Below, one piece after another: positions 3 through 51,621 of a DNA stretch of 64,000 nt (position 1 is the first letter of the stretch; every line of letters begins with the position of its first letter). The translations under genes and the position numbers were made by a program. This DNA is from an uncultured Butyrivibrio sp. (GTDB taxonomy: Bacteria > Bacillota > Clostridia > Lachnospirales > Lachnospiraceae), in assembly GCA_946623755.1 (NCBI GenBank), contig CAMORK010000002.1:1-64000 (forward strand), read 5' to 3'. The notes beneath the pieces are model-generated. The model saw nothing but the letters and a program-made list of their open reading frames with translations. It was not told where the DNA came from and did not search any database.

Positions 3-317
3 CATCCCGGTGCAACCATCGGTAAATACCTTATGATCGATCACGGAACCGGTATAGTTATCGGTGAAACTTCAGTCATTGGCGACAACGTCAAGATTTA
101 TCAGGGAGTCACCATCGGTGGTCTCTCAACCAAAGGTGGTCAGCAGCTCAAGGGAGTTAAGCGTCATCCCACTATCGAGAACAACGTCACCATTTATGCC
201 GGTGCTTCAATTCTCGGTGGTGAGACTGTCATCGGCGAAGGCTCGGTTATAGGGGCTAACGCTTTCATCACCTCATCCGTTCCGGCAGGAAGCAAGATCA
301 GCATGCAGAACCGCTGA
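3..317 (+). CDS. cysE: Serine O-acetyltransferase, C-terminal part (5' end lies outside the window)
   Basis: Left-handed beta-helix hexapeptide repeats ([40 protein letters not shown]). The reading frame is open to the window edge upstream of the listed ATG at 33. Confidence 0.85.
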
Positions 318-318
318 C

Positions 319-1293
319 TCATACAAATTCACAACCGGCAAAGATATTATTGACCGCAGCATGGTACTCACCCTTGCTGCGGCTTTTTCTTATGGCCTTA
401 AGGTATTTTTCGCAGTCCTTGAAATGCACATGTAGAAATGCCCAGTGTTCCAGCATCTTGAAGATGACATTTCGGTCTTCGGGAATATACTGAGCATAGC
501 CGTCATAAAGTGCGTTCAGATAATCTCTCAGCTCTTTTGACTTAAGCCCCTCCCCTCCCTGCAATTGCCTTACAAGAGAGGGATCGGTCAAAAGACCTCT
601 TCCTATCATGACACTGTCATATGGCAGATCCTTTATTTTCTCAAACCTTTCAATACTGTCGATGTTTCCGTTATAGCAGACATCGGCCTTTCCGCCACTT
701 TCCCTGTAGACTTTTACAGCTCTTTCGTACGCCGCATATCTGGGGCTTTTCCCATAATAGTCCTCCCGGACCCTGGCATGGATTATCAGCTCTTTTACCG
801 GGTATGAAGCATAAATATTCATCAGTGCATCTGCCTCTTTGTCATCGCTAAATCCCAGCCTTGTCTTAAGAGATATACGGGGAAAAGAGTCTTTTGCCGC
901 CTCTTCAAATATCTCATCAAGCATCTGCTTTAAATACTCCGGATCCTGCAAAAGACCTGCTCCTTTATGTCTGTTCACAACAGTCGGCGCAGGGCATCCA
1001 AGATTCAGGTTTACCTCTTCATAGCCCAGCTTTTTGATCTCCTTCGCAGCCCAGAGAAAATCCGGAGCATTTCCCGCCATCAGTTGAGGAACCACCTGAT
1101 TCCCATAATCATCAAAAGCGATGTTCTTGTCGGGAAGCACGTCTTTCTTTTCCCTGTTCTTGAAATGATGGCTGTTTGTTGCAGTTAAAAAAGGCGTGAA
1201 GTATTTGTCTACTCCATCGCCCATAATCTGTCTGTGTATGTTACGGAGGGGATAAAGAGTTATCCCCTCCATTGGTGCATAGTAAAATCTCAT
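319..1293 (-). CDS. dus: tRNA-dihydrouridine synthase
   Basis: MRFYYAPMEGITLYPLRNIHR, NLGCPAPTV and MIGRGLLTDPSL are Dus hallmarks. The listed ORF start (1428) lies inside the neighbouring EAL gene; the ATG at 1293 fits the family N-terminus. Confidence 0.9.
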   Translation of the reverse strand: MRFYYAPMEGITLYPLRNIHRQIMGDGVDKYFTPFLTATNSHHFKNREKKDVLPDKNIAFDDYGNQVVPQLMAGNAPDFLWAAKEIKKLGYEEVNLNLGCPAPTVVNRHKGAGLLQDPEYLKQMLDEIFEEAAKDSFPRISLKTRLGFSDDKEADALMNIYASYPVKELIIHARVREDYYGKSPRYAAYERAVKVYRESGGKADVCYNGNIDSIERFEKIKDLPYDSVMIGRGLLTDPSLVRQLQGGEGLKSKELRDYLNALYDGYAQYIPEDRNVIFKMLEHWAFLHVHFKDCEKYLKAIRKSRSKGEYHAAVNNIFAGCEFV

Positions 1294-1297
1294 TGCC

Positions 1298-2956
1298 TTA
1301 CTTGTACTTCTCCTCAAATTCTTCAACCGGCATTGGCTTGTCGAAATAGTAGCCCTGGAACATCGTACAGCCCATGTCCTGCAAATATGCCAGCTGTTCC
1401 CCGGTCTCGACACCCTCGGTAACGACACTCATTCCGAGCTCGTGTGCCATGTCGATGGTATAGTTTAAAATAACCCTCGCTCTTTTCTGATTCTCGGTCT
1501 TTCTGAGAAAGCCCATATCAATCTTGAGCACATCGGCATTAATATCTTTTAACATATTAAGAGAAGAATATCCAGAGCCAAAATCATCAATCTCAACTTT
1601 AAATCCCGCTTTTTGCAGCTCAAGAATAAGTTTCGCGCACTTGTTTACATCTGATGTCACAGCAGTCTCTGTTATCTCAATATTCAAAAGTCTGGGCTCA
1701 ATCTTGTATCTGGTAATAAGCTCCGTGAATTCTTTCTTTATATCCAGATAGTACAGATCTTTTGGCGAAACATTTACTGATATCGCCAGATCTGGCCTTT
1801 TGGTACCTTTCCATCTGGCAAGCTGAAGTGCCGCAAGTTCCCAGATATACCGATCAAGCTTATAAATAAGATCCGCCCTTTCAAGTACATCAATAAATAC
1901 TCCGGGCTGGATCAGACCATTCTCAGGATGTAACCATCTCGCCAGAGCTTCTGCTCCAAACGGTGTCCCATCAGCATAAACCTGTGGCTGAAGATAGATT
2001 CCGAACTGCCTGTTTATGATGGCAAAGTCGAAACTCGATAAGATCTCTTTTTCCAAAAGGGCATTTACCAGCATTTCATCGCTGTACCAGGCTATCTCGC
2101 ATACACCGTCCTTCTTGATCGACTTGCACGCCATATAAGCCCTGTCGCACATAAGTGTGATATCCATGCTTGGGTCTTTGATCTCATAAACGCCAATCTG
2201 CATGTGAAGCGAATACGATTTACTTGTAACCTTACTGGTTATCTCCCTGACCATCTTCTTGAAGTCCTTCTCAACGAAGTTTTCTTTCGGAATGCAAAGA
2301 GCAAAGTGGTCCCCGTTTATTCTTCCGTAGATATCGTCTTCAGTGACATGCTGTATCATAAGATCAGCAATATTGATCAGTATATCATTGCCTCTCTCAA
2401 GACCAAAGAGCTGGTTAAAGAGCTTAAAATCCCTTATATTTGAGTACAAAAGAAGATATGGTTTTCTTGCGTCCTTAAGCTTATTCTGAGCAGCCTGAGC
2501 AAAGCCTTCTCTGTTGTAGAGCCCTGTCAGATCATCATGAGTAAGCCTGTACTGCTCACCACTTCCGTTCTCAACTATATCAGAGAGGTTCTGGATCGTA
2601 TACATATGACCGATAGTCTTGTTATTATCATCAAGCAGATGCCTGTAGCGAACCTTATAAAGCCTTTCTCTTTCCTGATTTTCAAAGAGCCTGGTCCAGG
2701 CTGCAGAGCTCCGTTCTATTCCAAGGCTGTTCATCCAGTCCTTAAAGGACTTATAAACACTATCAAGACTATACTCAGCATGGAGCAAACTAAAAGCGTG
2801 CCGATTGGCATAGACACACTTTTCGTTTTCATCCAGAAACAGTATGCCCAGTCCCATCTGTTGCACGCCAAAATTTAGAAGTCTTGCTATCTCACAAGGC
2901 TCCACAGTACTATCGACATAGTATGCATTTTTTCCAAAAGGGTTATTTGCATCCAT
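1298..2956 (-). CDS. PAS/GGDEF-EAL protein; GGDEF degenerate, EAL apparently intact (c-di-GMP phosphodiesterase candidate)
   Basis: EALARW, NIEITET, IDDFGSGYSSL and VTEGVE motifs of EAL. The GGDEF position reads INGDHF. Confidence 0.88.
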   Translation of the reverse strand: MDANNPFGKNAYYVDSTVEPCEIARLLNFGVQQMGLGILFLDENEKCVYANRHAFSLLHAEYSLDSVYKSFKDWMNSLGIERSSAAWTRLFENQERERLYKVRYRHLLDDNNKTIGHMYTIQNLSDIVENGSGEQYRLTHDDLTGLYNREGFAQAAQNKLKDARKPYLLLYSNIRDFKLFNQLFGLERGNDILINIADLMIQHVTEDDIYGRINGDHFALCIPKENFVEKDFKKMVREITSKVTSKSYSLHMQIGVYEIKDPSMDITLMCDRAYMACKSIKKDGVCEIAWYSDEMLVNALLEKEILSSFDFAIINRQFGIYLQPQVYADGTPFGAEALARWLHPENGLIQPGVFIDVLERADLIYKLDRYIWELAALQLARWKGTKRPDLAISVNVSPKDLYYLDIKKEFTELITRYKIEPRLLNIEITETAVTSDVNKCAKLILELQKAGFKVEIDDFGSGYSSLNMLKDINADVLKIDMGFLRKTENQKRARVILNYTIDMAHELGMSVVTEGVETGEQLAYLQDMGCTMFQGYYFDKPMPVEEFEEKYK

Positions 2957-3011
2957 ACTATAATTTTACTGTTTTTTTGTTATAAAATCTATTAAATTTT
3001 AGGAAACGCTT

Positions 3012-3671
3012 TTACCTTCGTCTGTATCGTTTCTCCAAGGCCCACCATGCAAGCCCCAGCGCAAAAATAGCAGCGATAAACAGATGCTGGGTTTTCAACA
3101 CAAAGCCGGACTGATCGTTTTTTGCTCTATCCTTGCCGTCCTGATACAGAATCAGTGTTGTACCGATATTATGAGTACTGACCGAGAGTGTATCAGCATC
3201 CTTATCAACATCTTCCTCTAAAACGCACACACCCATAACATCTGTCATTGCATAATACGCCCTCTTCTCTGCTACCAGATAGCGAGGAATCTCGTATTGA
3301 AATTCAATATCATCATAAAGCGTTTCAATGGGATTTATCTCCTCCCCGTCGATACTCTTTTCAGCCCTTACCTCAAAATAGACACCGCTCTTAAGCGGCC
3401 CTGTAAGCATCTCTGCTTTCTCTATTCCGCTTTTAAAATGTGCAAGTTCTTCCTCATCATCCGGTTCATCAGTCATCACATAATGAAAATCAAGAGAAGC
3501 CGAACTTCCCTCACTAATCTCTTCAAGCTCCCTGACGGTAAAGCTTGCTTCCACAGCCTGATAATAATCACCAAACCTGATATCAGGTGCAGCAACTTCT
3601 GTTTCGCTCTCCGTGCTGACTACCAGCGTAACGGTTCCCTCACCATATGTAACCTGAGTCGTTTCCTGCAT
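3012..3671 (-). CDS. Hypothetical protein with a single C-terminal TM segment and RRR tail
   Basis: Strong SD (GGAGGGG) before the ATG. C-terminus LFIAAIFALGLAWWALEKRYRRR. No obvious signal peptide. Confidence 0.6.
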   Translation of the reverse strand: MQETTQVTYGEGTVTLVVSTESETEVAAPDIRFGDYYQAVEASFTVRELEEISEGSSASLDFHYVMTDEPDDEEELAHFKSGIEKAEMLTGPLKSGVYFEVRAEKSIDGEEINPIETLYDDIEFQYEIPRYLVAEKRAYYAMTDVMGVCVLEEDVDKDADTLSVSTHNIGTTLILYQDGKDRAKNDQSGFVLKTQHLFIAAIFALGLAWWALEKRYRRR

Positions 3672-18496: not shown

Positions 18497-18808
18497 TTAC
18501 TCAGCATATTTTTCATGTACAAACTTCCACATGAATCCCATGATCACGACAGCCACCACAATAAGAATAAGTGCAGCTATCGGATCAAAGAAAGAAACGA
18601 TTCCCATTGTGATTGCCGCTATGCCCAGGAAAATAATGATCAGCCCTGCGAAAAAAGTATACTCTCTTGGGTGTTTGATACTCTCCGGATTATCCTTTTT
18701 GATGATCTTCACATCTCTTGTAACGATGAGTCTGATACCAAAAAACATGCAAACGAGAAATGCCAGTATTTCGATCCCCATGTGATTAATTATTGTCTGT
18801 ATGTTCAT
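18497..18808 (-). CDS. Small membrane protein of unknown function
   Basis: Three predicted TM segments. Start MNIQTIINHM at 18808 with SD AGGAGAG; overlaps the upstream GGDEF gene. Confidence 0.6.
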   Translation of the reverse strand: MNIQTIINHMGIEILAFLVCMFFGIRLIVTRDVKIIKKDNPESIKHPREYTFFAGLIIIFLGIAAITMGIVSFFDPIAALILIVVAVVIMGFMWKFVHEKYAE

Positions 18809-20927
18809 TTTTACTCTCCTGCTTTCTACCAATCAGGTCATCTGCCCTGTTTAGTACTATATTAATATCTTTTGTCCCATACAAACAATACACTGAAGAG
18901 ACGTTTGCTTCAATAGCATTTTCTTTAAACATCTTTTTGAGTCTCTCGACGTCGCTCTCAAAATAAGCTTCCTCTGTCTCAAATCCAAAGGCATAAAACT
19001 GTGTGCCGCTTATTCTGAACACGCCGGAATCACCGAATATCTCTGTAAGAATCCTTGCTGCAACCACAACAATCTGATCACCCACTTCAAATCCTTCCGA
19101 GATATTGACCTCATCAAGTTTGACAAGATCACAGCGAACCAGCCCAAATGGCTGAGACATATCAAGTCCGTGCTCTAAGTATTTTTTGAAAGCAGCATAA
19201 TTGCTTAAGCCCGAGAGTGCATCTTTATAGGTATAATTCAGCGCCCTGCTCTGTTCTTCTCTCTGTAGAACGAGCTGTGCAAGAAAATAGCTTATGAGAT
19301 TGATGATCTCAGACACTGTCTCGAGCTTCTTTGAAGTTGCTCCCACAACACCGCAGACACCAAAAAGATTGCCTCCCACTTCAAGAGGGCCAATTATCAT
19401 GTTATCTACTTTATTGGTTTTTAACAGGCTGTAAAAGCCCGGAATCGAATTTCTGAATTCTTCCGGATCCCTGACTATCAGCCTGTGATCGTTTTTATTG
19501 AATGCATCATATATCCTGTCAATTATATCCTCTGACGACAAATACATCATTTCAAGAGAAAAAGACTCCTCTCCTTCTTTGTACCATTCATAAGTGCCCT
19601 TGTATTTTCCGTTCTTCTGGTCTTCAAAGATAAAGATTCGCCTGGCATCAAGCTCTTTTCCCAAATAAGCAAGGATTGACCTTATATTCGAATCCGGGGA
19701 GTTGGATGAAAGTGCATACTGAAGCGCACGATTTATGAAGCGGTCACGCTCAATGGCAGCACTGTCCTTCATCCACCATCTGAGAAATTCAATCAGCTCA
19801 ATTGCCACGTAGACAGTAGCACCTATTCGGGTAAAGAGGCCAAATCGCTCAGTAGTCCTTCCGGCCATAAAGTACTGGGCAATATCCAGAAAACCGCTGC
19901 CGGCAAAGATGATCCCACTGATATACAGATATCTGAGTCTGTTTTTCTTTCCTGTTTTTCTGCAGTAAACAGCGTTATCCAGAACCATTATGATAAATAT
20001 TGCAAGGCCGATAATGATATATGCTCCGGCAAACCAGGGGAAGGAATCCATCATATCAATCCCTAATGCATAACGAATGGTTATAATGCCAAAGACACTG
20101 ACCATGGATAACCAAAAGCCCAGATGCTTATATATTTCCCGCTTCTTTTCTGTCTGCGAATTAAAAAAGAGTATGCTGGGATATGCGATCATAAACGGAA
20201 TTATCCTGTTGATATCTCTGCAGACATAAATATGACCTGTGATCAGCTGGAAGATATCCGTGCCGATCAGCAACCAGATTCCTGTAAGTACAGCACTGCT
20301 TCCAAGTGCAAGAACATTAAACGGAAATGCTGATTTATTGGATGATCCGACAAAGGCAATGAGGAATATCAGCCCCAGGAATATATTGAGAATACAGAAT
20401 ATGCATGAAAAGAGACTTTTCCTGATCACCAGCTGAATGAAATCCGAGGCAGAGCATAGATAAACATCAAAAACGGTTCCGTTTTTCTGACCTTCGTAGA
20501 CCTGCTCAAATTCAAGTCTTATGGTCTTTCCTGCATCGTCCTTGTTTATCCCTATTTCGTGAAATGCAACTCCGTAGCACATTCCAGTGAGATTAGACAT
20601 GCTGTAGAATCTGTATACCTGCCTCCCGCCTATGAAAACTCTGATATTTGTGTTCTTTGATTTAAAGCACAGTGCATCCTTGTCCGTTATGCCACCGGAC
20701 AGCTTTTTTTCAACCGCAATCCTTCCACCGTAGTCTTTGATATTAAGGTCATCAACATAAACCTTCTCACCGCCCGGAAGCATCCAGCCATCGGAATATC
20801 CGTCTATATTCTCATGGCTTGTGATCAGCCTGTCTGTAGACATAGGTATCCCGATGAGGATTATCGCAATAAGAATTGCAAAGAATACAGCATATATTAA
20901 GTTTATGAGTGACTGTTTACTCTTCAT
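18786..20927 (-). CDS. Membrane protein with 7TM-type sensor region, GAF-like region and degenerate GGDEF domain
   Basis: N-terminal extracytoplasmic domain, TM bundle, C-terminal DALSGLSNYAAF...RISGTQFYAFGF (GGDEF signature lost). Confidence 0.75.
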   Translation of the reverse strand: MKSKQSLINLIYAVFFAILIAIILIGIPMSTDRLITSHENIDGYSDGWMLPGGEKVYVDDLNIKDYGGRIAVEKKLSGGITDKDALCFKSKNTNIRVFIGGRQVYRFYSMSNLTGMCYGVAFHEIGINKDDAGKTIRLEFEQVYEGQKNGTVFDVYLCSASDFIQLVIRKSLFSCIFCILNIFLGLIFLIAFVGSSNKSAFPFNVLALGSSAVLTGIWLLIGTDIFQLITGHIYVCRDINRIIPFMIAYPSILFFNSQTEKKREIYKHLGFWLSMVSVFGIITIRYALGIDMMDSFPWFAGAYIIIGLAIFIIMVLDNAVYCRKTGKKNRLRYLYISGIIFAGSGFLDIAQYFMAGRTTERFGLFTRIGATVYVAIELIEFLRWWMKDSAAIERDRFINRALQYALSSNSPDSNIRSILAYLGKELDARRIFIFEDQKNGKYKGTYEWYKEGEESFSLEMMYLSSEDIIDRIYDAFNKNDHRLIVRDPEEFRNSIPGFYSLLKTNKVDNMIIGPLEVGGNLFGVCGVVGATSKKLETVSEIINLISYFLAQLVLQREEQSRALNYTYKDALSGLSNYAAFKKYLEHGLDMSQPFGLVRCDLVKLDEVNISEGFEVGDQIVVVAARILTEIFGDSGVFRISGTQFYAFGFETEEAYFESDVERLKKMFKENAIEANVSSVYCLYGTKDINIVLNRADDLIGRKQESKNEHTDNN

Positions 20928-23900
20928 AACATGTCTTCCGTAACATCTGACAACAGCTTTATCTCTTCATAATCCTGCCGCTTAAAAGCAATTTCTATCC
21001 TGTTCATTTTCTCCTGATGTTTTTCAGGGATGTCATATTCCGAAATATCCCTCAGCGTCATCCCGATCATCCTGTCATTGCGCTCCATTGCAGCTTTTCT
21101 AATGGTATCGTAAGCACTTTTGACCAGGATTTTGTCAAAATGGTCATCAACATCCTTTTTGCTGTTACAGAAAGGTTCAAGATTCCTTTTACAGTCTTTG
21201 AGTCTTTCCACAAAATCTTCATTATTATTCCGGATATAGTCCGTATCGTCATTCTTCCCGGCCATTTCAAGCTTTTCCGCATTGTTTCCGAGACTCATTG
21301 CTCCGATCAGCCTTGAAGAACTCTTAAGAGCATGAACCTTGATCGTATAGTCTTTCCAGTTTTCTGCAGCATAGAAATCTTCAAGCTCCTGTATCCTCTG
21401 ATCCAAAGAATCATAGAATATCTGAAGAACGGATTTAAATGCCTCTTCCGATCCGCTGTTTTCCATGGCCTTTTCTGAATCAATCCCGGGTATCTCTTCA
21501 TACCATTTTGTTTTGTCTTCATTTACTTCTTCATACTCTGAAACCGGAACCTGATCTTCGGTAAATTCTATATATTCAGCCTGATTGTTGTCACCGCCTT
21601 GATGAAGTGCATTTGACAGGACCTGACTTAGGCCATAAGGCTCATCTTTCTTTATCAGATACATGATACCCATAGCACCATGGCCACAGTTTAAAGACAT
21701 AACAGAAGAAACCTTCTGGAAGAGAATATGTTCAAAGTTATGCCTCTTCCTGATGGCTTTTTCGACAATCTCTTTTTCCTCATCTGTAAGCGAAATATAA
21801 TCTACTATCGCCACATCAAGATCAGGGTTTGCATTTCTCGGAAGAATAAAATCAAGGTACTTCTGATAGCACTCGTCCATCTCGCCTGTGAATATCCTGC
21901 CTATAGTCACCTTACCGCCTTTGATGTTGATGACAGGCCTTAATCCGAAGGTACTTACAAGTGCATAGGTTGACCTTCTTATACCTCCGCGCTTCATGAG
22001 GAACTCTGCATTCCCGGTAACGAAGCTGCATTTTAAGTTCTTTTTAACCTTTTCCAGATCACCTATTATCCTGTCAAACGCTCTTCCCTGTATTGACATC
22101 CTGTATGCCAAAAGAACGAGCATACCAAGGGCGCTGGAATTGGCTTCTGAATCTATTACCGATACATTTCCGTAAGCCCTTGCTGCTTCAAGTGCGTTTT
22201 CATACTCCTTACTGATTCCGGCAGATACCGCAATGTATATGATCTGATGGGCTTTTTTGACCTCCTGGGCAAAAAACCTCTCGAATTCCGGTACTGTAGG
22301 AGGTGATGACGTAAACTGCGCACCTTCCGCCACATAGCGCATCACTTCATCACTGCTTGCTTCATCATAATCGTAATAGGATTTTCCGTCAGACATAATG
22401 GAGAACGGAATTATATCTATCTGATGTTCCCACAGTGTCTTTCTTGGCAGATCGCACATGCTGCTGGTTGCGACAATGATAGGCATCTTCTTGATGTAAG
22501 CCCTTGAAGAATTCATTTTTGCCCCTTCAAGGTCAGACCCTTCTGTCCTTACAATCTTAGACTCCTGAAGGTGATCAAGGATCATTTCTTCAAGCTGTTC
22601 ACCTGATATCGGTTTTACCAGATATCCATCAAAACCGCTTCTTTCATACAGCTCCCTGCTCTCGGAATCGGCGTTTGCTGTAAGTGCAATGACAGGCGTA
22701 TGATTGTTATGGCCTCCAAGCTGCTTTCTGATCAACTGCAGACATTCAACGCCATCCATACCGGGCATGAGATGATCCATTAAAATAACATCATATGCCT
22801 CTGCATATGTCATGGAAAGAGCCTCAGGACCGCTTAAGGCAGTGTCAATAACAATCTCTGTACCATCAAGAAGTTTCTTTTCAACTTCAAGATTCATCTC
22901 ATTATCATCGACAATAAGTATCCTTGCTTCGGGTGCAATAAATCCCGGAATATATTTTCCCTTTAACTCTCTCTTTCCGTAGTTTTCAATGCTTATCTCA
23001 CCTACAGGCTCACGCCTTGTCACTTTCTGTTTAAGTGACACAATAAAGGTTGAACCTTCAGTATAGGTGCTGTTTACGGTGATTTTGCCGTCCATCAGCT
23101 CCACCAGCTGTTTAACGATAGACAGACCAAGACCTGTACCCTCTATCTTGGCATTTCTCTCCTCGTCCATTCTGGCAAAAGCATCAAAAAGATATGGAAT
23201 AACATCCTGCTTGATTCCCATACCGGTATCAATTACCGAGATCAGAAGAACAACCTCATCACCTTTTGTATTTTCTTCTTTCTCAATACGCAGTGTAACA
23301 GAGCCTTCCTGAGTATACTTGACCGCATTGTTGAGCAGATTTACAAGTATCTGCTTTAATCTCACTTCATCGCCAAAGAGCTCGGCGGGAATCGTCGGAT
23401 CAACTTCAAGATTAAGTGTCAGATCTTTTTGCTGGGCCCTTAACCAGATCATGTTTACAATCTCGGAGATCACGTTTCCAAGGTTATAGTTTACAGGCAC
23501 AATATCCATCTTGCCCGCTTCGATCTTGGACATATCCAGAATGTCATTTATAAGAGACAGCAACATTTTACCGGCTCCCTGAATGTTTTTGGCGTCATTT
23601 ATGATTTCATCGGAAGCATCTTCCTGCCGCAGGATGATCTCATTAAGTCCCAGGATAGAATTTATCGGAGTCCTTATCTCATGGCTCATATTGGAAAAGA
23701 ACCTGTTCTGAGATCTGTTGAGTTCTTCAACCTTTCTGGTCTCTTCCTTGGCTCTTTTATTCTCTTCATCATAAAGCCACTCCTCAAACCAGACCATGAA
23801 GCAGCATATGATACCTACAAGTACCATTGAAATAAGGGAATCGGCAAAGAAAGCCTCTCTTGTATGCTCTACAACCCATTCCGGGAAAAAGTAACCTATA

Positions 23901-24325
23901 GCATACAGAATGACGGACTCAATAGTGAGCACCACGAGCATCAGCGGTTTCCAGAAGCCACTGAGCACAAGTCCTGTATAAAGAAACGTGAATATCATCC
24001 AAAGGATTCCGCCGCCGTATATTCCGCCGCCGGAAAAGAACACCAGGGGAAGGGCAACAAAAACCTGGCCCAATACGATAAGTCTTACCGCAATGGACAC
24101 ATGATTTCTCCTGATCGACACTATGGTTACAATCGGAATTGCCAGCACAATAATAACCAGCGCAATTATCTCAACCATGTTCTCGCCGAGAATAATATCA
24201 CCCAGAAGTGCCAGGAAGATAAAGAAATCCGTAACCATTGTAAGCAGTATGAATACACGCTCTTTAAAACTTCTTGAGGGGTCTTTAAGAAGGTTTTTTA
24301 CCTTCTGTATGATCTTATGAATCAT
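20924..24325 (-). CDS. Hybrid sensor histidine kinase with embedded DegV domain: TM-HisKA-HATPase-REC-DegV-Hpt-C-terminal extension
   Basis: FFSNMSHEIRTPINSILG; ILMDHLMPGMDG; DegV block VATSSMCDLPRK...FTSSPPTVPEFERFF...IYIAVSAGISKEYENALEAAR...VIDSEANSSALGMLV...GGIRRSTYALVSTFGLRPVINIKGGK...CGHGAMGIMYL; Hpt HALKSSSRLIGA. Start at MIHK (24325) after GGAGGT is preferred over the listed 24355. Confidence 0.9.
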   Translation of the reverse strand: MIHKIIQKVKNLLKDPSRSFKERVFILLTMVTDFFIFLALLGDIILGENMVEIIALVIIVLAIPIVTIVSIRRNHVSIAVRLIVLGQVFVALPLVFFSGGGIYGGGILWMIFTFLYTGLVLSGFWKPLMLVVLTIESVILYAIGYFFPEWVVEHTREAFFADSLISMVLVGIICCFMVWFEEWLYDEENKRAKEETRKVEELNRSQNRFFSNMSHEIRTPINSILGLNEIILRQEDASDEIINDAKNIQGAGKMLLSLINDILDMSKIEAGKMDIVPVNYNLGNVISEIVNMIWLRAQQKDLTLNLEVDPTIPAELFGDEVRLKQILVNLLNNAVKYTQEGSVTLRIEKEENTKGDEVVLLISVIDTGMGIKQDVIPYLFDAFARMDEERNAKIEGTGLGLSIVKQLVELMDGKITVNSTYTEGSTFIVSLKQKVTRREPVGEISIENYGKRELKGKYIPGFIAPEARILIVDDNEMNLEVEKKLLDGTEIVIDTALSGPEALSMTYAEAYDVILMDHLMPGMDGVECLQLIRKQLGGHNNHTPVIALTANADSESRELYERSGFDGYLVKPISGEQLEEMILDHLQESKIVRTEGSDLEGAKMNSSRAYIKKMPIIVATSSMCDLPRKTLWEHQIDIIPFSIMSDGKSYYDYDEASSDEVMRYVAEGAQFTSSPPTVPEFERFFAQEVKKAHQIIYIAVSAGISKEYENALEAARAYGNVSVIDSEANSSALGMLVLLAYRMSIQGRAFDRIIGDLEKVKKNLKCSFVTGNAEFLMKRGGIRRSTYALVSTFGLRPVINIKGGKVTIGRIFTGEMDECYQKYLDFILPRNANPDLDVAIVDYISLTDEEKEIVEKAIRKRHNFEHILFQKVSSVMSLNCGHGAMGIMYLIKKDEPYGLSQVLSNALHQGGDNNQAEYIEFTEDQVPVSEYEEVNEDKTKWYEEIPGIDSEKAMENSGSEEAFKSVLQIFYDSLDQRIQELEDFYAAENWKDYTIKVHALKSSSRLIGAMSLGNNAEKLEMAGKNDDTDYIRNNNEDFVERLKDCKRNLEPFCNSKKDVDDHFDKILVKSAYDTIRKAAMERNDRMIGMTLRDISEYDIPEKHQEKMNRIEIAFKRQDYEEIKLLSDVTEDML

Positions 24326-26387
24326 GAGACACCTCCATTCCGGCCTTTTTGCCACCAGACATAACGTGCATCATGACTCTCTCAAAATCATTTATGTTTA
24401 TAGGCTTACTTATGAATCCGTCAAAGCCCTCTTTCAGGAACATCTCTCTTGCACCGCTGACAGCATTGGCTGTGAGTGCGATCACAATGAGCTTTCTGTC
24501 TTTCTGATCTGCGATAAACCTGAGTTTCTTCATCGCCTCAACGCCGTCCATTTCAGGCATCATGTGATCCATAAAGACTATGTCATATGCCTCATGGTCA
24601 TACTTTATCAGAGCTTCCCTGCCACTGTCTGCCGTATCAACCACCATCTTATAATCCTTAAAAAGACCTGTGGCAACAACCAGATTCATAGGCTCATCGT
24701 CAACTATAAGAGCTCTTATTCCTTCCAGATTAAGCGCCTTATTTTCGGCGGTCTTCATAAATGAAGTCACGTCACTCTCTCCGTTTAATACCTTAGCAAC
24801 CGTATATCCGTAAACCGGCTTGGGCATGACAATGATCCGGTTCTTGTTCTTCATAGCAAAACCGGGTTCATTATACATTGCGACAGTGACCCCACTTTCA
24901 GATAATTCATCGAAGAAACCGGGATCCTGTTTATATTCGTCGACTCCCAAAAATACATGCGAAATCTTCCCCGTATCCAAAAGTCTTTTCAGCTCTTTCA
25001 GGGACGGAGCTGAGTATAGATTGATCCTGAGTCCCGTGGCCAGATTGGTCGCCATCATCTCATAAGCTCCACCGACCCTGAAATCATCCAGTTTGTCTGC
25101 AAGCACATGGAAAGCTACACCCAGGAATTTATCAGTATTTACAGTTATGCACGGAGTCGGATCAATAACTTCCTGTACAATACTCACTTTGACAACAGTT
25201 CCCGCTCCAATATTACTTTCAATTGATACAAAGCCGTGCATAAGCCTTGTAAAGCCATAGACGATTGAAAGCCCCAGTCCTATACCGCCGGTACTTCTGT
25301 TTCTCTTTTTATCAGCCTGATAGCTTCCTGTGGCAACTCTTTCCCTGACTTTTTCAGTCATACCGATACCTGTATCCATAACCTCGATTATCAGGTTAAT
25401 GCCGTAATCCTTCTTAATGCAGAAGACTCGTAGAAGAACTCCACCTTTTTTGGTGAACTTAAATCCATTGTCCACAAGATGCATGATTATCTTTTTCAGC
25501 TTCTTGGAATCACCTTTCAAAACAGCAGGCACAGACGGATCCAGATCGATGGTGAAATCAAGGCCTTTTTGCTGATACAGCATCTCATAATTTACCGCAA
25601 TATCGCTAAGGACTGATGTGATCATATACTTTTCTTCCTCTAAGACCGCATCTCCTCTTTCTATTTCACTGTAATCCTGAATATCTTCAATCTGGTAGGA
25701 AAGACGCATACCGGCATCTCTGATTGCCTGTACGTCAGCTCTTGGCTCCCTTTTCATGATCAGTGTAGACATACCGTTTATTACATTGACAGGTGTTCTT
25801 AGTTCATGGGAAATGTTGGCAAGGAAATCCTCCATGCCTTTTTTGACGTTCTCCTCAGTGTCCTGAACAGATTCTATATCTCCTTCAATCCTGCTCATAT
25901 TTCTGAGAATCTCATGAAGAGCTCTGTATATGCTTATTTCAACAACAATATGGAGAATTATCCTTGATATGGTTAAAGGTTCAAGCATAATACTGTTAGT
26001 GATCAGTCCAAAGATCAGCTGACCTGCCATAATGACAAAGAATTCCACAAGAATAACAGGCAAAAATTTCTTTCTGCCCATAACAGACGCTGTGATCATA
26101 AGAAGAACCGAAATAATGATGATATCGTAGAGACTGGTCTGATGAACACCATGAAAGAAAGCCACCATCATCGAGAAGATCAAAAAGAAATTCTCTCTGA
26201 ACCTGACTTCACCATAACCGGTTATGTGAATGCCCCAGCATGCGATTATACCTCCGGCAATAAGAGGTATCACCCAGAGTTCCCACCTTTGGGATATACT
26301 TTCCAGGATTGCTCCGATACAGGTTATCGTAATAATAATTACAACCACATTGTGGGCTCTTAGTGTCCGATTCGCTTTTTCGTTCAA
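24315..26387 (-). CDS. Membrane hybrid histidine kinase (HisKA-HATPase-pseudo-REC-like linker-REC)
   Basis: FLANISHELRTPVNVING, GGIGLGLSIVYGF, REC VDDEPMN...VFMDHMMPEMDG. TTG start at 26387 with upstream AGAGGG proposed; the listed 26441 start falls in a terminator. Confidence 0.85.
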   Translation of the reverse strand: MNEKANRTLRAHNVVVIIITITCIGAILESISQRWELWVIPLIAGGIIACWGIHITGYGEVRFRENFFLIFSMMVAFFHGVHQTSLYDIIIISVLLMITASVMGRKKFLPVILVEFFVIMAGQLIFGLITNSIMLEPLTISRIILHIVVEISIYRALHEILRNMSRIEGDIESVQDTEENVKKGMEDFLANISHELRTPVNVINGMSTLIMKREPRADVQAIRDAGMRLSYQIEDIQDYSEIERGDAVLEEEKYMITSVLSDIAVNYEMLYQQKGLDFTIDLDPSVPAVLKGDSKKLKKIIMHLVDNGFKFTKKGGVLLRVFCIKKDYGINLIIEVMDTGIGMTEKVRERVATGSYQADKKRNRSTGGIGLGLSIVYGFTRLMHGFVSIESNIGAGTVVKVSIVQEVIDPTPCITVNTDKFLGVAFHVLADKLDDFRVGGAYEMMATNLATGLRINLYSAPSLKELKRLLDTGKISHVFLGVDEYKQDPGFFDELSESGVTVAMYNEPGFAMKNKNRIIVMPKPVYGYTVAKVLNGESDVTSFMKTAENKALNLEGIRALIVDDEPMNLVVATGLFKDYKMVVDTADSGREALIKYDHEAYDIVFMDHMMPEMDGVEAMKKLRFIADQKDRKLIVIALTANAVSGAREMFLKEGFDGFISKPININDFERVMMHVMSGGKKAGMEVSHDS

Positions 26388-26421
26388 ATCGTTGCCCTCT
26401 TTTAAGAGACAAAAACAACAT

Positions 26422-26453
26422 AAAAAGGGATGCAGCCTCAAAAAGCTACATCC
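26422..26453 (-). terminator. Intrinsic terminator of the mgl operon
   Basis: Minus strand GGGATGTAGC-TTTTTGAG-GCTGCATCCC followed by TTTTT. Confidence 0.75.
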
Positions 26454-48576: not shown

Positions 48577-51500
48577 CTACAATATATTTAAAAGTCCATC
48601 CCTGTCAACTGCTGCCATAAGTCTTTTTACTTCGTGGTATTTGTTCCTGTATTCCGCAGGAATGCTGTAATCTTCCAGCATTTTCATAATATCATCCGCA
48701 CTGTCGAAGTATGATGCCGATACAAATTCTTTTATCGTAGCGAAGGCATTTTCCAGCTCTTCAGGTGATATTTCGGTTTTTTTGTCTTCATCTTCCTTAA
48801 AGAGCGGTTCAAGTCTTCTGTTATAACTTCTGTACATAGCAAGAAGATCCGGAGTCAACATTCTTATATTATCAACATCTGCGTTGTTTCCGCAACTCTC
48901 AAGAAATTCCGCTTTTTCCGCAAGATCAAGAGCTCCGATTGCCCTTGCCGAGCTCTTTAGGCCATGAACGTAAATGGTATAATTCTTAATATCATTTTCC
49001 ATCTCATAGCGCTCAATAGCACCGGATCTCTCATCGATAGACAGCCAGAAGTCCTTCATTACATCTCTTGCCAGAGCTGCTGATCCGCATCTCTCAATGG
49101 CGGCATTTATGTCCACGCCTGTTATCTTCAAAAGATCCTGAAATGCAATCTTATCCTCTTTGTCCGTTTCGGCACCCGCAGAGATGAACCCCTCATCTGA
49201 AGATCTCATAACCATGTCTTTTGGCAGATAAAGGAGGATCATTTCCTCAAGCTTCTCCGGATCCACCGGTTTTGACATATAATTTGCAAATCCCTCACCC
49301 AGGTACATTTCCCTGGAGCCGGAGATTGCATTGGCTGTAAGCGCCACAACCGGTGTATTCTTATTAGGATTGTCAGGCATCTCTTCCATGGCATGGAAGG
49401 TCTGGATTCCGTCCATTTCAGGCATTCTGTGATCCAAAAAGATTATATCGTATTTATTGTTTTTTACCATCTCAAGTGCATCCATACCACTGATTGCAGT
49501 ATCCACCTGCATTCTGGTCTGTTTTAAGAGGCCCTTGATAACAGTAAGATTAGTTTTCGTATCGTCAACCACAAGTATCCTGGCGTTTTCCGCGTGGAAG
49601 CTCTCCTGATATACCCCCATTGCTTTTTGGACTTCACCGGCCTTCTGAGTGAAATCTCCGACAGGCTCCCAGTCCACAACCCGTTGTTTTATAGCAAAAG
49701 AGAAGACGCTTCCCTCGCCATACTTACTGCTGACATCCAGTTTGGAGCCCATAAGTTCAAGAAGCGAAACCACAATATTTATACCAAGGCCCGATCCCTC
49801 AATAGTCCTGTTCTTTTTGGCATCTATTCTCTCAAAAGCAGACATGAGTTTATCCATGTCTTCTTCCCTGATACCTATTCCGGTATCACGGACACTTATC
49901 TTTAGCATGATATCCTGAACATCATCATATTCAGGATTCTCAGGTTCTACTTCCTCATAGTCAACATCAAGCACAACAGATCCGACCTCTGTATACTTGA
50001 CAGCATTGGTAACAATGTTCAGTATACACTGCTTTATCCTGATCTCATCGCCAAAAAGAATATGCGGGATTTTCTCGTTAACATTGATGGAAAGATCAAG
50101 ATTCTTTTCCCTTGCTCTTACATCAGACATATTAAAGAGGTCGTTGAGCAGCGATCCGAGCTCGTATTCCACCGGAATGATCTCCATCTTGCCGGCTTCT
50201 ATTTTGGAGAAGTCAAGGATATCGTTGATCAGTGCCAGAAGAGTCTTACCTGATCCCTGAATATCTCTGGCATACCCCAGTATTGTATCATCTGTAGACT
50301 CCCTGAGGATCATTTCATCAAAGCCCAGAACAGCATTGATAGGAGTTCTGATCTCATGCGAAATGGCAGACAGGAATCTGGATTTGGCTTCGTTGGCTGA
50401 TTTGGCTATCTGGAGCTGATCTTCAATGTTCTGTCTGGCCTTAACCAGTTCAATGTACTCCACAAGCCTGTACACAGTGAGGTCAACAGCATGATACAGC
50501 CCTTCAATTTCATCTTTGGTCCTGATGTCAAGGTTGTGAACCTCATCAACTGCCGCATTCAGATTATTGTCATTGGAATTGTAAATACTTGACACAGCTT
50601 TGGACAACACCCTGATCGGCCTTGCAATTCTCCACTGGGCATATCTGTTTACGAAAACAGCCATTGGAATGACAATGACAGAAATCAGCATGGCCAGCTG
50701 AATGCTGAATTTATAATCTATCCGTCTCTGTCCTGATACCTGTTCATTAAAATATGTTGTTTCATCCTGGAACACGCCTTCCATCTCACGGCTGACGATC
50801 AGTTCCATCCTGTCTGCGCTTCCAACATCCCTCAGTGAATTCTCCCTCACCGACTGTTCCAGGTTAGAATCGTTTTTTACAATCGGCAAAATGGTATTGG
50901 AAGCAAGCTCTGCTGATATTCCGATTACCAGAGCTTCAAAAATAATGATATTCATAATGATAAGGCTGATCCTGGAAGTTGATTCCACAGTATATCTCTC
51001 ATCTTCGGAGAGCTTGGAAGGATCCACATAGTATTTGCCGTTACCAAATAAAAGTTTAATCTTATCAGGAAGTTTTTTGAATATTAAATAGACAATAAAG
51101 CTGCTTAAAAGACATCCCGGCAGCTCATTTAAAAAAAAGAGCAACTGCTGCTCCGGTGAAATAGCAGCAATTCCTTCATCACTAAGCAGTATAAGAATGA
51201 TACCCCAAAAGTTACCGACCAGTATCTGCAGGAAAACAGATGCCAGAAAGGTTTTATGCTTTTTGGCATAGAACCCTCTTCTGGCAAACAAATCCACGAC
51301 GCACACCACAAGAAGGTACACAAATGTCATATATGAAAAAGAGCTGCTGACATAAGACCTGTGAAGAAACACCAGAAGGACGCATGTCATCCCCGGAATG
51401 TTACCGCCGAGAGCGGTAACAATTACCAGGGGAATATATCTGACTGCATATAAAAGTCCGGCAGTAAAATAGCCTGATCTTTCAACATAGAGTACGTTTT

Positions 51501-51621
51501 CGTTGTACAGTATGATAAAAGCTGCAGTAAGCAGCACCATCAGAGCTGTTATGATTCTCTTTATGATCTGTTTCGGATTTCGGGGTCGTTTGAACATTCC
51601 GGCTATTTCCATATATGGCAC
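48577..51621 (-). CDS. Membrane hybrid histidine kinase: TM sensor-HisKA-HATPase-REC-Hpt-C-terminal extension
   Basis: FLSAISHEIRTPINAVLG, GSGLGINIVVSLLELMG, IIFLDHRMPEMDG, Hpt HGLKSSARAIGA. Confidence 0.92.
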   Translation of the reverse strand: MPYMEIAGMFKRPRNPKQIIKRIITALMVLLTAAFIILYNENVLYVERSGYFTAGLLYAVRYIPLVIVTALGGNIPGMTCVLLVFLHRSYVSSSFSYMTFVYLLVVCVVDLFARRGFYAKKHKTFLASVFLQILVGNFWGIILILLSDEGIAAISPEQQLLFFLNELPGCLLSSFIVYLIFKKLPDKIKLLFGNGKYYVDPSKLSEDERYTVESTSRISLIIMNIIIFEALVIGISAELASNTILPIVKNDSNLEQSVRENSLRDVGSADRMELIVSREMEGVFQDETTYFNEQVSGQRRIDYKFSIQLAMLISVIVIPMAVFVNRYAQWRIARPIRVLSKAVSSIYNSNDNNLNAAVDEVHNLDIRTKDEIEGLYHAVDLTVYRLVEYIELVKARQNIEDQLQIAKSANEAKSRFLSAISHEIRTPINAVLGFDEMILRESTDDTILGYARDIQGSGKTLLALINDILDFSKIEAGKMEIIPVEYELGSLLNDLFNMSDVRAREKNLDLSINVNEKIPHILFGDEIRIKQCILNIVTNAVKYTEVGSVVLDVDYEEVEPENPEYDDVQDIMLKISVRDTGIGIREEDMDKLMSAFERIDAKKNRTIEGSGLGINIVVSLLELMGSKLDVSSKYGEGSVFSFAIKQRVVDWEPVGDFTQKAGEVQKAMGVYQESFHAENARILVVDDTKTNLTVIKGLLKQTRMQVDTAISGMDALEMVKNNKYDIIFLDHRMPEMDGIQTFHAMEEMPDNPNKNTPVVALTANAISGSREMYLGEGFANYMSKPVDPEKLEEMILLYLPKDMVMRSSDEGFISAGAETDKEDKIAFQDLLKITGVDINAAIERCGSAALARDVMKDFWLSIDERSGAIERYEMENDIKNYTIYVHGLKSSARAIGALDLAEKAEFLESCGNNADVDNIRMLTPDLLAMYRSYNRRLEPLFKEDEDKKTEISPEELENAFATIKEFVSASYFDSADDIMKMLEDYSIPAEYRNKYHEVKRLMAAVDRDGLLNIL

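Follow-up and report, generated by a model that had tools for sequence, protein, structure and literature searches.

A DegV (FakB-like) domain in a conserved family of probable two-kinase phosphorelays of Lachnospiraceae, a possible cytosolic fatty-acid sensor

Introduction

Proteins of the DegV/FakB family are known as carriers through which exogenous fatty acids enter phospholipid synthesis. In the study behind the FakB2 structure 4x9x, residues T61, S93 and H266 reportedly hold the fatty-acid carboxylate, while R170 is said to be needed for the kinase reaction and R202 for the binding of FakA. Among signalling proteins, RpfC senses fatty-acid signals (DSF) via an N-terminal membrane sensor region. 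The DhaK fold binds dihydroxyacetone, and the DhaK paralogue DhaQ co-activates transcription of the dha operon, working with a TetR-type regulator.

Here we describe a hybrid histidine kinase gene, gene B, that carries a DegV domain and is encoded in a 64,000-nucleotide stretch of DNA from an uncultured Butyrivibrio sp. (the window; positions 1 to 64,000 of contig CAMORK010000002.1, assembly GCA_946623755.1). Its DegV domain shares with the FakB/DegV proteins (PF02645, TIGR00762; S. aureus FakB2, PDB 4x9x) the family, the predicted fold and the Thr/Ser and Ser hydroxyls; unlike FakB, which stands alone, it sits in a kinase, has R170, R202 and H266 replaced, and belongs to a clade of its own with 100/100 support. 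The His-Asp-His relay with intact phospho-sites is that of the BarA/ArcB/TorS/EvgS-type tripartite kinases (HisKA-HATPase-REC-Hpt), to which gene B adds a DegV domain between REC and Hpt, a co-encoded second kinase, and an Hpt domain found in the family on either partner. With RpfC-type kinases it may have in common, besides the hybrid kinase organization, a response to fatty acids and a link to cyclic-di-GMP, whereas RpfC has no DegV domain and its sensor is unrelated in sequence. DhaQ (2iu4), a metabolite carrier subunit of a related fold made into a regulator, is a logical precedent rather than a homologous system: here the setting is a phosphorelay, and the fold similarity is partial (TMq 0.51).

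DegV proteins are familiar, and so are hybrid phosphorelay kinases. We found no account, in the literature that we searched, of a conserved, paralogue-rich family that joins the two and has systematically lost the Fak residues. The original prediction had named no characterized system of such design, and in agreement with it the openly searchable literature contained no description of a DegV fusion to a histidine kinase, a hybrid kinase or a GGDEF protein.

Results

Domain organization of gene B

Gene B is a single uninterrupted open reading frame at 20924-24325 on the minus strand of the window, and its product of 1133 aa has the domain order TM-HisKA-HATPase-REC-DegV-Hpt. The longest open frame (20924-24355) begins with GTG and would encode 1143 aa; the ATG at 24325 is the better start, with a GGAGGTG ribosome-binding site six bases before it. 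The features of the locus are as follows.

24315-26441, minus strand: gene A, the partner hybrid kinase TM-HisKA-HATPase-REC, overlapping gene B by 11 nt (Pfam, neighbourhood)
20924-24325 including the stop codon, minus strand: gene B, hybrid kinase (open reading frame, translation, Pfam, ribosome-binding site)
23792-24256, minus strand: six predicted transmembrane segments of gene B, aa 24-178, N-terminal, before the kinase (hydropathy scan)
23513-23710, minus strand: HisKA domain, phospho-acceptor His215 at nt 23681-23683, invariant in 119/119 relatives (Pfam)
23027-23374, minus strand: HATPase_c domain, N-box Asn333 and G1 Asp366 invariant (Pfam)
22580-22921, minus strand: REC domain, phospho-acceptor Asp517 at nt 22775-22777, invariant in 118/118 relatives with the domain (Pfam)
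21656-22477, minus strand: DegV domain, aa 617-890, Ser at the positions of FakB2 T61 and S93, without R170, R202 and H266 (PF02645, residue comparison, AlphaFold2, Foldseek)
21242-21430, minus strand: Hpt domain, phospho-acceptor His998 at nt 21332-21334, invariant in 103/103 relatives with the domain (Pfam)
18786-20927, minus strand: downstream membrane protein with a degenerate GGDEF domain, SGTQF replacing GGDEF, overlapping gene B by 4 nt (PF00990 at 9.4e-8, motif, transmembrane segments)

All domains of gene B score above the Pfam gathering cut-offs, with E-values of 1.2e-16 for HisKA, 8.6e-28 for HATPase_c, 1.9e-23 for Response_reg, 2.8e-43 for DegV (PF02645) and 9.4e-8 for Hpt. The match to PF02645 (148.7 bits against a cut-off of 27) covers positions 3-278 of the 280 in the profile, and the NCBIfam DegV model TIGR00762 is passed as well (159.5 bits, cut-off 99.7); among the best 25 NCBIfam hits, gene B stays below the cut-off of every named hybrid-kinase model. 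As in a tripartite phosphorelay hybrid kinase, HisKA, HATPase_c, REC and Hpt are present with intact His, Asn, Asp, Lys and His residues. The initial reading of one frame with a TM region, HisKA, HATPase, an intact REC, DegV and Hpt was correct in order, position and motifs; the DegV segment, located by it at nt about 21646-22486, coincides with the Pfam match and lies, as expected from it, between Response_reg and Hpt.

The relay residues were compared over 119 distinct DegV kinase proteins. The HisKA His and the residues of the N and G1 boxes are invariant in all 119, the REC Asp, Thr and Lys in all 118 with a REC domain, and the Hpt His and Lys in all 103 with an Hpt domain. The one protein without REC, L053 (G029:C64, ORF 983-3490, minus strand), is a natural variant that lacks the TM region as well but retains the HisKA, HATPase, DegV and Hpt domains; SHEISSVIN is its H-box, and its partner kinase is intact. 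Mean pairwise identity is 0.80 in HisKA, 0.70 in HATPase, 0.68 in REC, 0.56 in Hpt, 0.46 in DegV and 0.37 in the TM region, DegV being the fastest-changing cytosolic domain (0.46 versus 0.56-0.80 in the others). The high variability of DegV and the TM region is expected of input domains. The window also encodes a 1014-aa hybrid kinase HisKA-HATPase-REC with a weak C-terminal Hpt and no DegV domain (48577-51621, minus strand).

The two-kinase operon and its neighbours

The functional unit is the two-kinase operon of genes A and B. In 75 loci the DegV kinase has a homologue of gene A directly upstream, and in 62 of them the two genes overlap by 4 nt; the His and Asp phospho-sites of this partner kinase are themselves invariant. 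The Hpt domain is present on one kinase or the other: none of 75 partners of Hpt-bearing DegV kinases has it, and where the DegV kinase is Hpt-less and ends after DegV, the partner ends in Hpt in 18 of the 19 cases in which its end is visible. In the single exception (L184) the partner Hpt is degenerate and lacks the His. A transfer of the Hpt by descent from the partner to gene B is unsupported, because an unrelated Hpt of the window scores as well against the gene-B Hpt profile (68.6 bits) as the Hpts of the partners (57-92 bits), and we claim complementary presence only.

Two loci have the system in split form. The gene order in L183 is HK-REC, DegV-Hpt as a gene of its own, and REC-GGDEF; in L194 it is HK-REC-Hpt, DegV alone, and REC-GGDEF; the GGDEF motif is intact in both. 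These orders tie DegV to the relay, whether fused or separate. For gene B the prediction that DegV lies between the REC and Hpt steps of a phosphorelay stands, and the phospho-sites are intact, but the position is not essential: since sister proteins have the Hpt on the partner, and DegV or DegV-Hpt is a separate gene in two loci, the constant link is that of DegV with the kinase pair, and DegV is no obligatory spacer.

In the window, no obvious cognate response regulator lies directly adjacent to genes A and B, and the GGDEF domain encoded downstream is degenerate; homologues of this downstream membrane protein occur near several other DegV kinase loci. Among the neighbours in 81 loci, a pseudoREC-REC protein of ~260 aa is encoded in 42, a GGDEF-containing membrane protein in 22 and a REC-GGDEF protein in 17. 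The ~260-aa protein (L083:10583-11371 and homologues) has an N-terminal REC-like part without a Pfam match, followed by REC, and is a candidate for the terminal phospho-acceptor of the kinase pair. Other genera, too, have a REC protein of this size behind the Hpt-bearing form (L167, L169-L171), as does L168 from the same genus. In L177 a CheY-like single-REC gene (127-549, plus strand) separates the DegV kinase from what looks like the end of its partner kinase. Behind the DegV kinase, roughly one locus in four (21 and 26 of 81; L097, L113, L141 and similar) has a DUF6976 gene and then a sodium:alanine symporter gene.

The DegV domain

FakB2 numbering was checked on chain 4x9x, where one tag offset fits all five residues. 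In the 103 Hpt-bearing proteins, the hydroxyls at the carboxylate-holding positions are retained in 97 at T61 (Ser 90, Thr 7) and likewise in 97 at S93 (Ser 94, Thr 3), the window domain having Ser at both. R170 is retained in only 9 of the 103 and replaced by hydrophobic residues, and H266 in 2, with Asn in 86. R202 is retained in 26/103 in one alignment and 1/38 in a second, a count that depends on the alignment register and amounts to loss in both; the window domain lacks all three of R170, R202 and H266. The Hpt-less subclade is less uniform, with Arg at 170 in 21/35, Ser at S93 in 14/35 and Ser or Thr at T61 in 18/35. The 35 stand-alone DegV controls, which include 24 from Butyrivibrio and its close relatives, all conserve T61, S93, R170 and R202; at the H266 position 25 have His and 10 have Tyr.

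The AlphaFold2 model of the window DegV domain has a pLDDT of 91.2 and a pTM of 0.90. Its top Foldseek matches are all DegV/FakB proteins (E down to 1.7e-26, TM 0.8-0.9), many with a bound fatty acid; the best in the PDB are FakB2 4x9x (TMq 0.82), the fatty-acid-binding DegV 2dt8 and the lipid-binding 1pzx, whereas DhaK and DhaQ match at lower similarity (2iu4, TMq 0.51). In a model of REC-DegV-Hpt the domains are well folded and their arrangement is uncertain (pTM 0.51), with a disordered REC-DegV linker, so that it offers no sign of allosteric coupling. This linker has 28 aa in 94 of 119 proteins; we set aside the fixed spacing as a rigid coupling, given a linker pLDDT near 37.

We think it rather probable that genes A and B make up a two-kinase phosphorelay, with DegV sensing a fatty acid or a similar ligand in the cytosol and no longer serving as a partner of FakA. 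Against a ligand sensor, the replacement of H266 by Asn and of T61 by Ser could alter or abolish the binding of a carboxylate. The same two replacements occur in an apparent FakA-DegV fusion of 596 aa from another family of the order (L193; G238:C1:4777500-4782000, ORF 728-2515, plus strand), in which R170 is kept; this fusion resembles gene B in these residues but, as read from its sequence, DegV is joined there to a FakA-like kinase domain and not to a histidine kinase. Because L193 has both replacements, they are by themselves no proof of a lost Fak role.

The ligand might not be a free fatty acid; if it were a different carboxylate, an acyl-phosphate, an acyl-ACP or a small sugar-like compound, the domain would be a novel cytosolic sensor, though not one of fatty acids. 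Asn at H266 and a hydrophobic residue at R170 change the polar end of the pocket, and the related DhaK fold, which accommodates dihydroxyacetone, has in DhaQ a regulatory co-activator as paralogue (fold match 2iu4). However, fatty-acid-binding DegV proteins are nearest in fold, and the carboxylate-holding Thr/Ser-Ser pair is kept; we regard such a ligand as doubtful, if worth serious consideration.

We consider it unlikely that DegV is a ligand-free structural or scaffolding module, serving dimerization or the docking of A to B, with the pocket as a relic. This would account for the loss of several FakB signature residues and for the Hpt-less subclade, whose members often lack the hydroxyls too. 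Yet the Hpt-bearing clade retains the hydroxyls (about 94%) but not the catalytic or docking residues, the domain is under purifying selection (dN 0.036, dS 0.60 for the window versus L062), and its fold is predicted with high confidence to be intact. The poor retention of the hydroxyls in the Hpt-less subclade does mean that not every member need bind the same ligand.

A continued FakB role, in which the fused domain hands FakA its fatty acids and the kinase does no more than control this step, appears highly improbable, even though the domain belongs to PF02645, FakA is encoded in close relatives, and 21 of 35 Hpt-less members keep the Arg at 170. R202 is lost from almost all fused copies and R170 from the clade of the window, and the fused form has beside it separate canonical stand-alone DegVs with the full set of FakB residues, including in the window's own genome. 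FakA itself is above the cut-off in most close relatives tested, with a short low-scoring match in the 60%-complete genome of the window. As judged from these residues, the fused DegV is probably not a FakB feeding FakA: almost every copy in the window's clade has R170 and R202 replaced, and the same genomes encode canonical stand-alone FakB-type proteins.

Origin and distribution

The kinase-linked DegV domains have a single origin. In a tree of 111 DegV domains (IQ-TREE, LG+C20) all of them, split forms included, fall on one side of a branch with 100/100 support, apart from the stand-alone FakB-type DegVs, and the Hpt-bearing form is a clade, again with 100/100 support.

A search of 61 genomes found full-length uninterrupted homologues of gene B in many genomes of the same genus, often several per genome, and 52 of 52 fused DegV domains tested match PF02645. 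A scan with a 16-row alignment over 85,462 species, one genome each, gave 479 related stretches; in the best 80, which were kept, the domain order is identical and without stops in 80/80 loci, wherever the contig covers the region. The names of these 80 are Butyrivibrio, Pseudobutyrivibrio, Eubacterium sp. and Lachnospiraceae, with titles mostly of rumen or gut origin, and loci with an open fused frame include the isolates Butyrivibrio sp. XPD2006, NC2007 and MC2021. Sampling the order, the class and the phylum evenly, we found fused DegV kinases across many genera of the window's own family and, beyond it, in a second family of the order (G297, G351) and a further one of the class (G495, G567, G733, of which G567 and G733 had their domain content checked). 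The phylum sample held no further fused form at E 1e-60, a threshold at which independent fusions less like the profile would escape.

The fusion in gene B is real and not an assembly artefact: a chimeric frame made by mis-assembly or by a missed frameshift between a kinase and a DegV gene, one of the two findings that were to overturn the prediction and one for which the fragmented, 60%-complete assembly gave some occasion, is practically out of the question when 80/80 loci from independent assemblies, isolates included, have the same fused frame open.

Discussion

In the two-kinase phosphorelay with a DegV sensor that we favour, the ligand, the direction of phosphate flow, the allosteric coupling, the sign of regulation and the output are matters on which we infer the following. 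Phosphate would pass from the HisKA His to the REC Asp and on to the single Hpt His common to genes A and B, and from there to a separate response regulator. The likely acceptors in relatives would be the pseudoREC-REC protein or the REC-GGDEF diguanylate cyclase encoded beside the pair, through which the relay may have its output. DegV, as a repurposed FakB, would bind a fatty acid or a similar acyl carboxylate in the cytosol, and the bound ligand would alter the kinase, phosphatase or phosphotransfer activity. The natural rearrangements of the system, with the Hpt on either partner, the REC missing or DegV as a gene of its own, make this relay logic testable.

The family is large, and it has kept the residues that hold the ligand and lost those related to FakA; if our reading is true, its members would sense intracellular fatty acids directly. 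Unsaturated fatty acids poison or inhibit rumen Butyrivibrio, which biohydrogenate them (PMC2836310), and a fatty-acid sensor would make sense in these bacteria for that reason. Tentatively, and with somewhat less than an even chance of being right in full, we suggest that Lachnospiraceae have a so far undescribed class of two-kinase phosphorelays in which a repurposed FakB domain is an internal fatty-acid sensor. To response regulators including cyclic-di-GMP enzymes it would report on the pool of exogenous fatty acids in the cytosol, which for rumen Butyrivibrio may be the toxic unsaturated ones that they biohydrogenate. How Butyrivibrio senses fatty acids is also a practical question for the lipids of ruminants.
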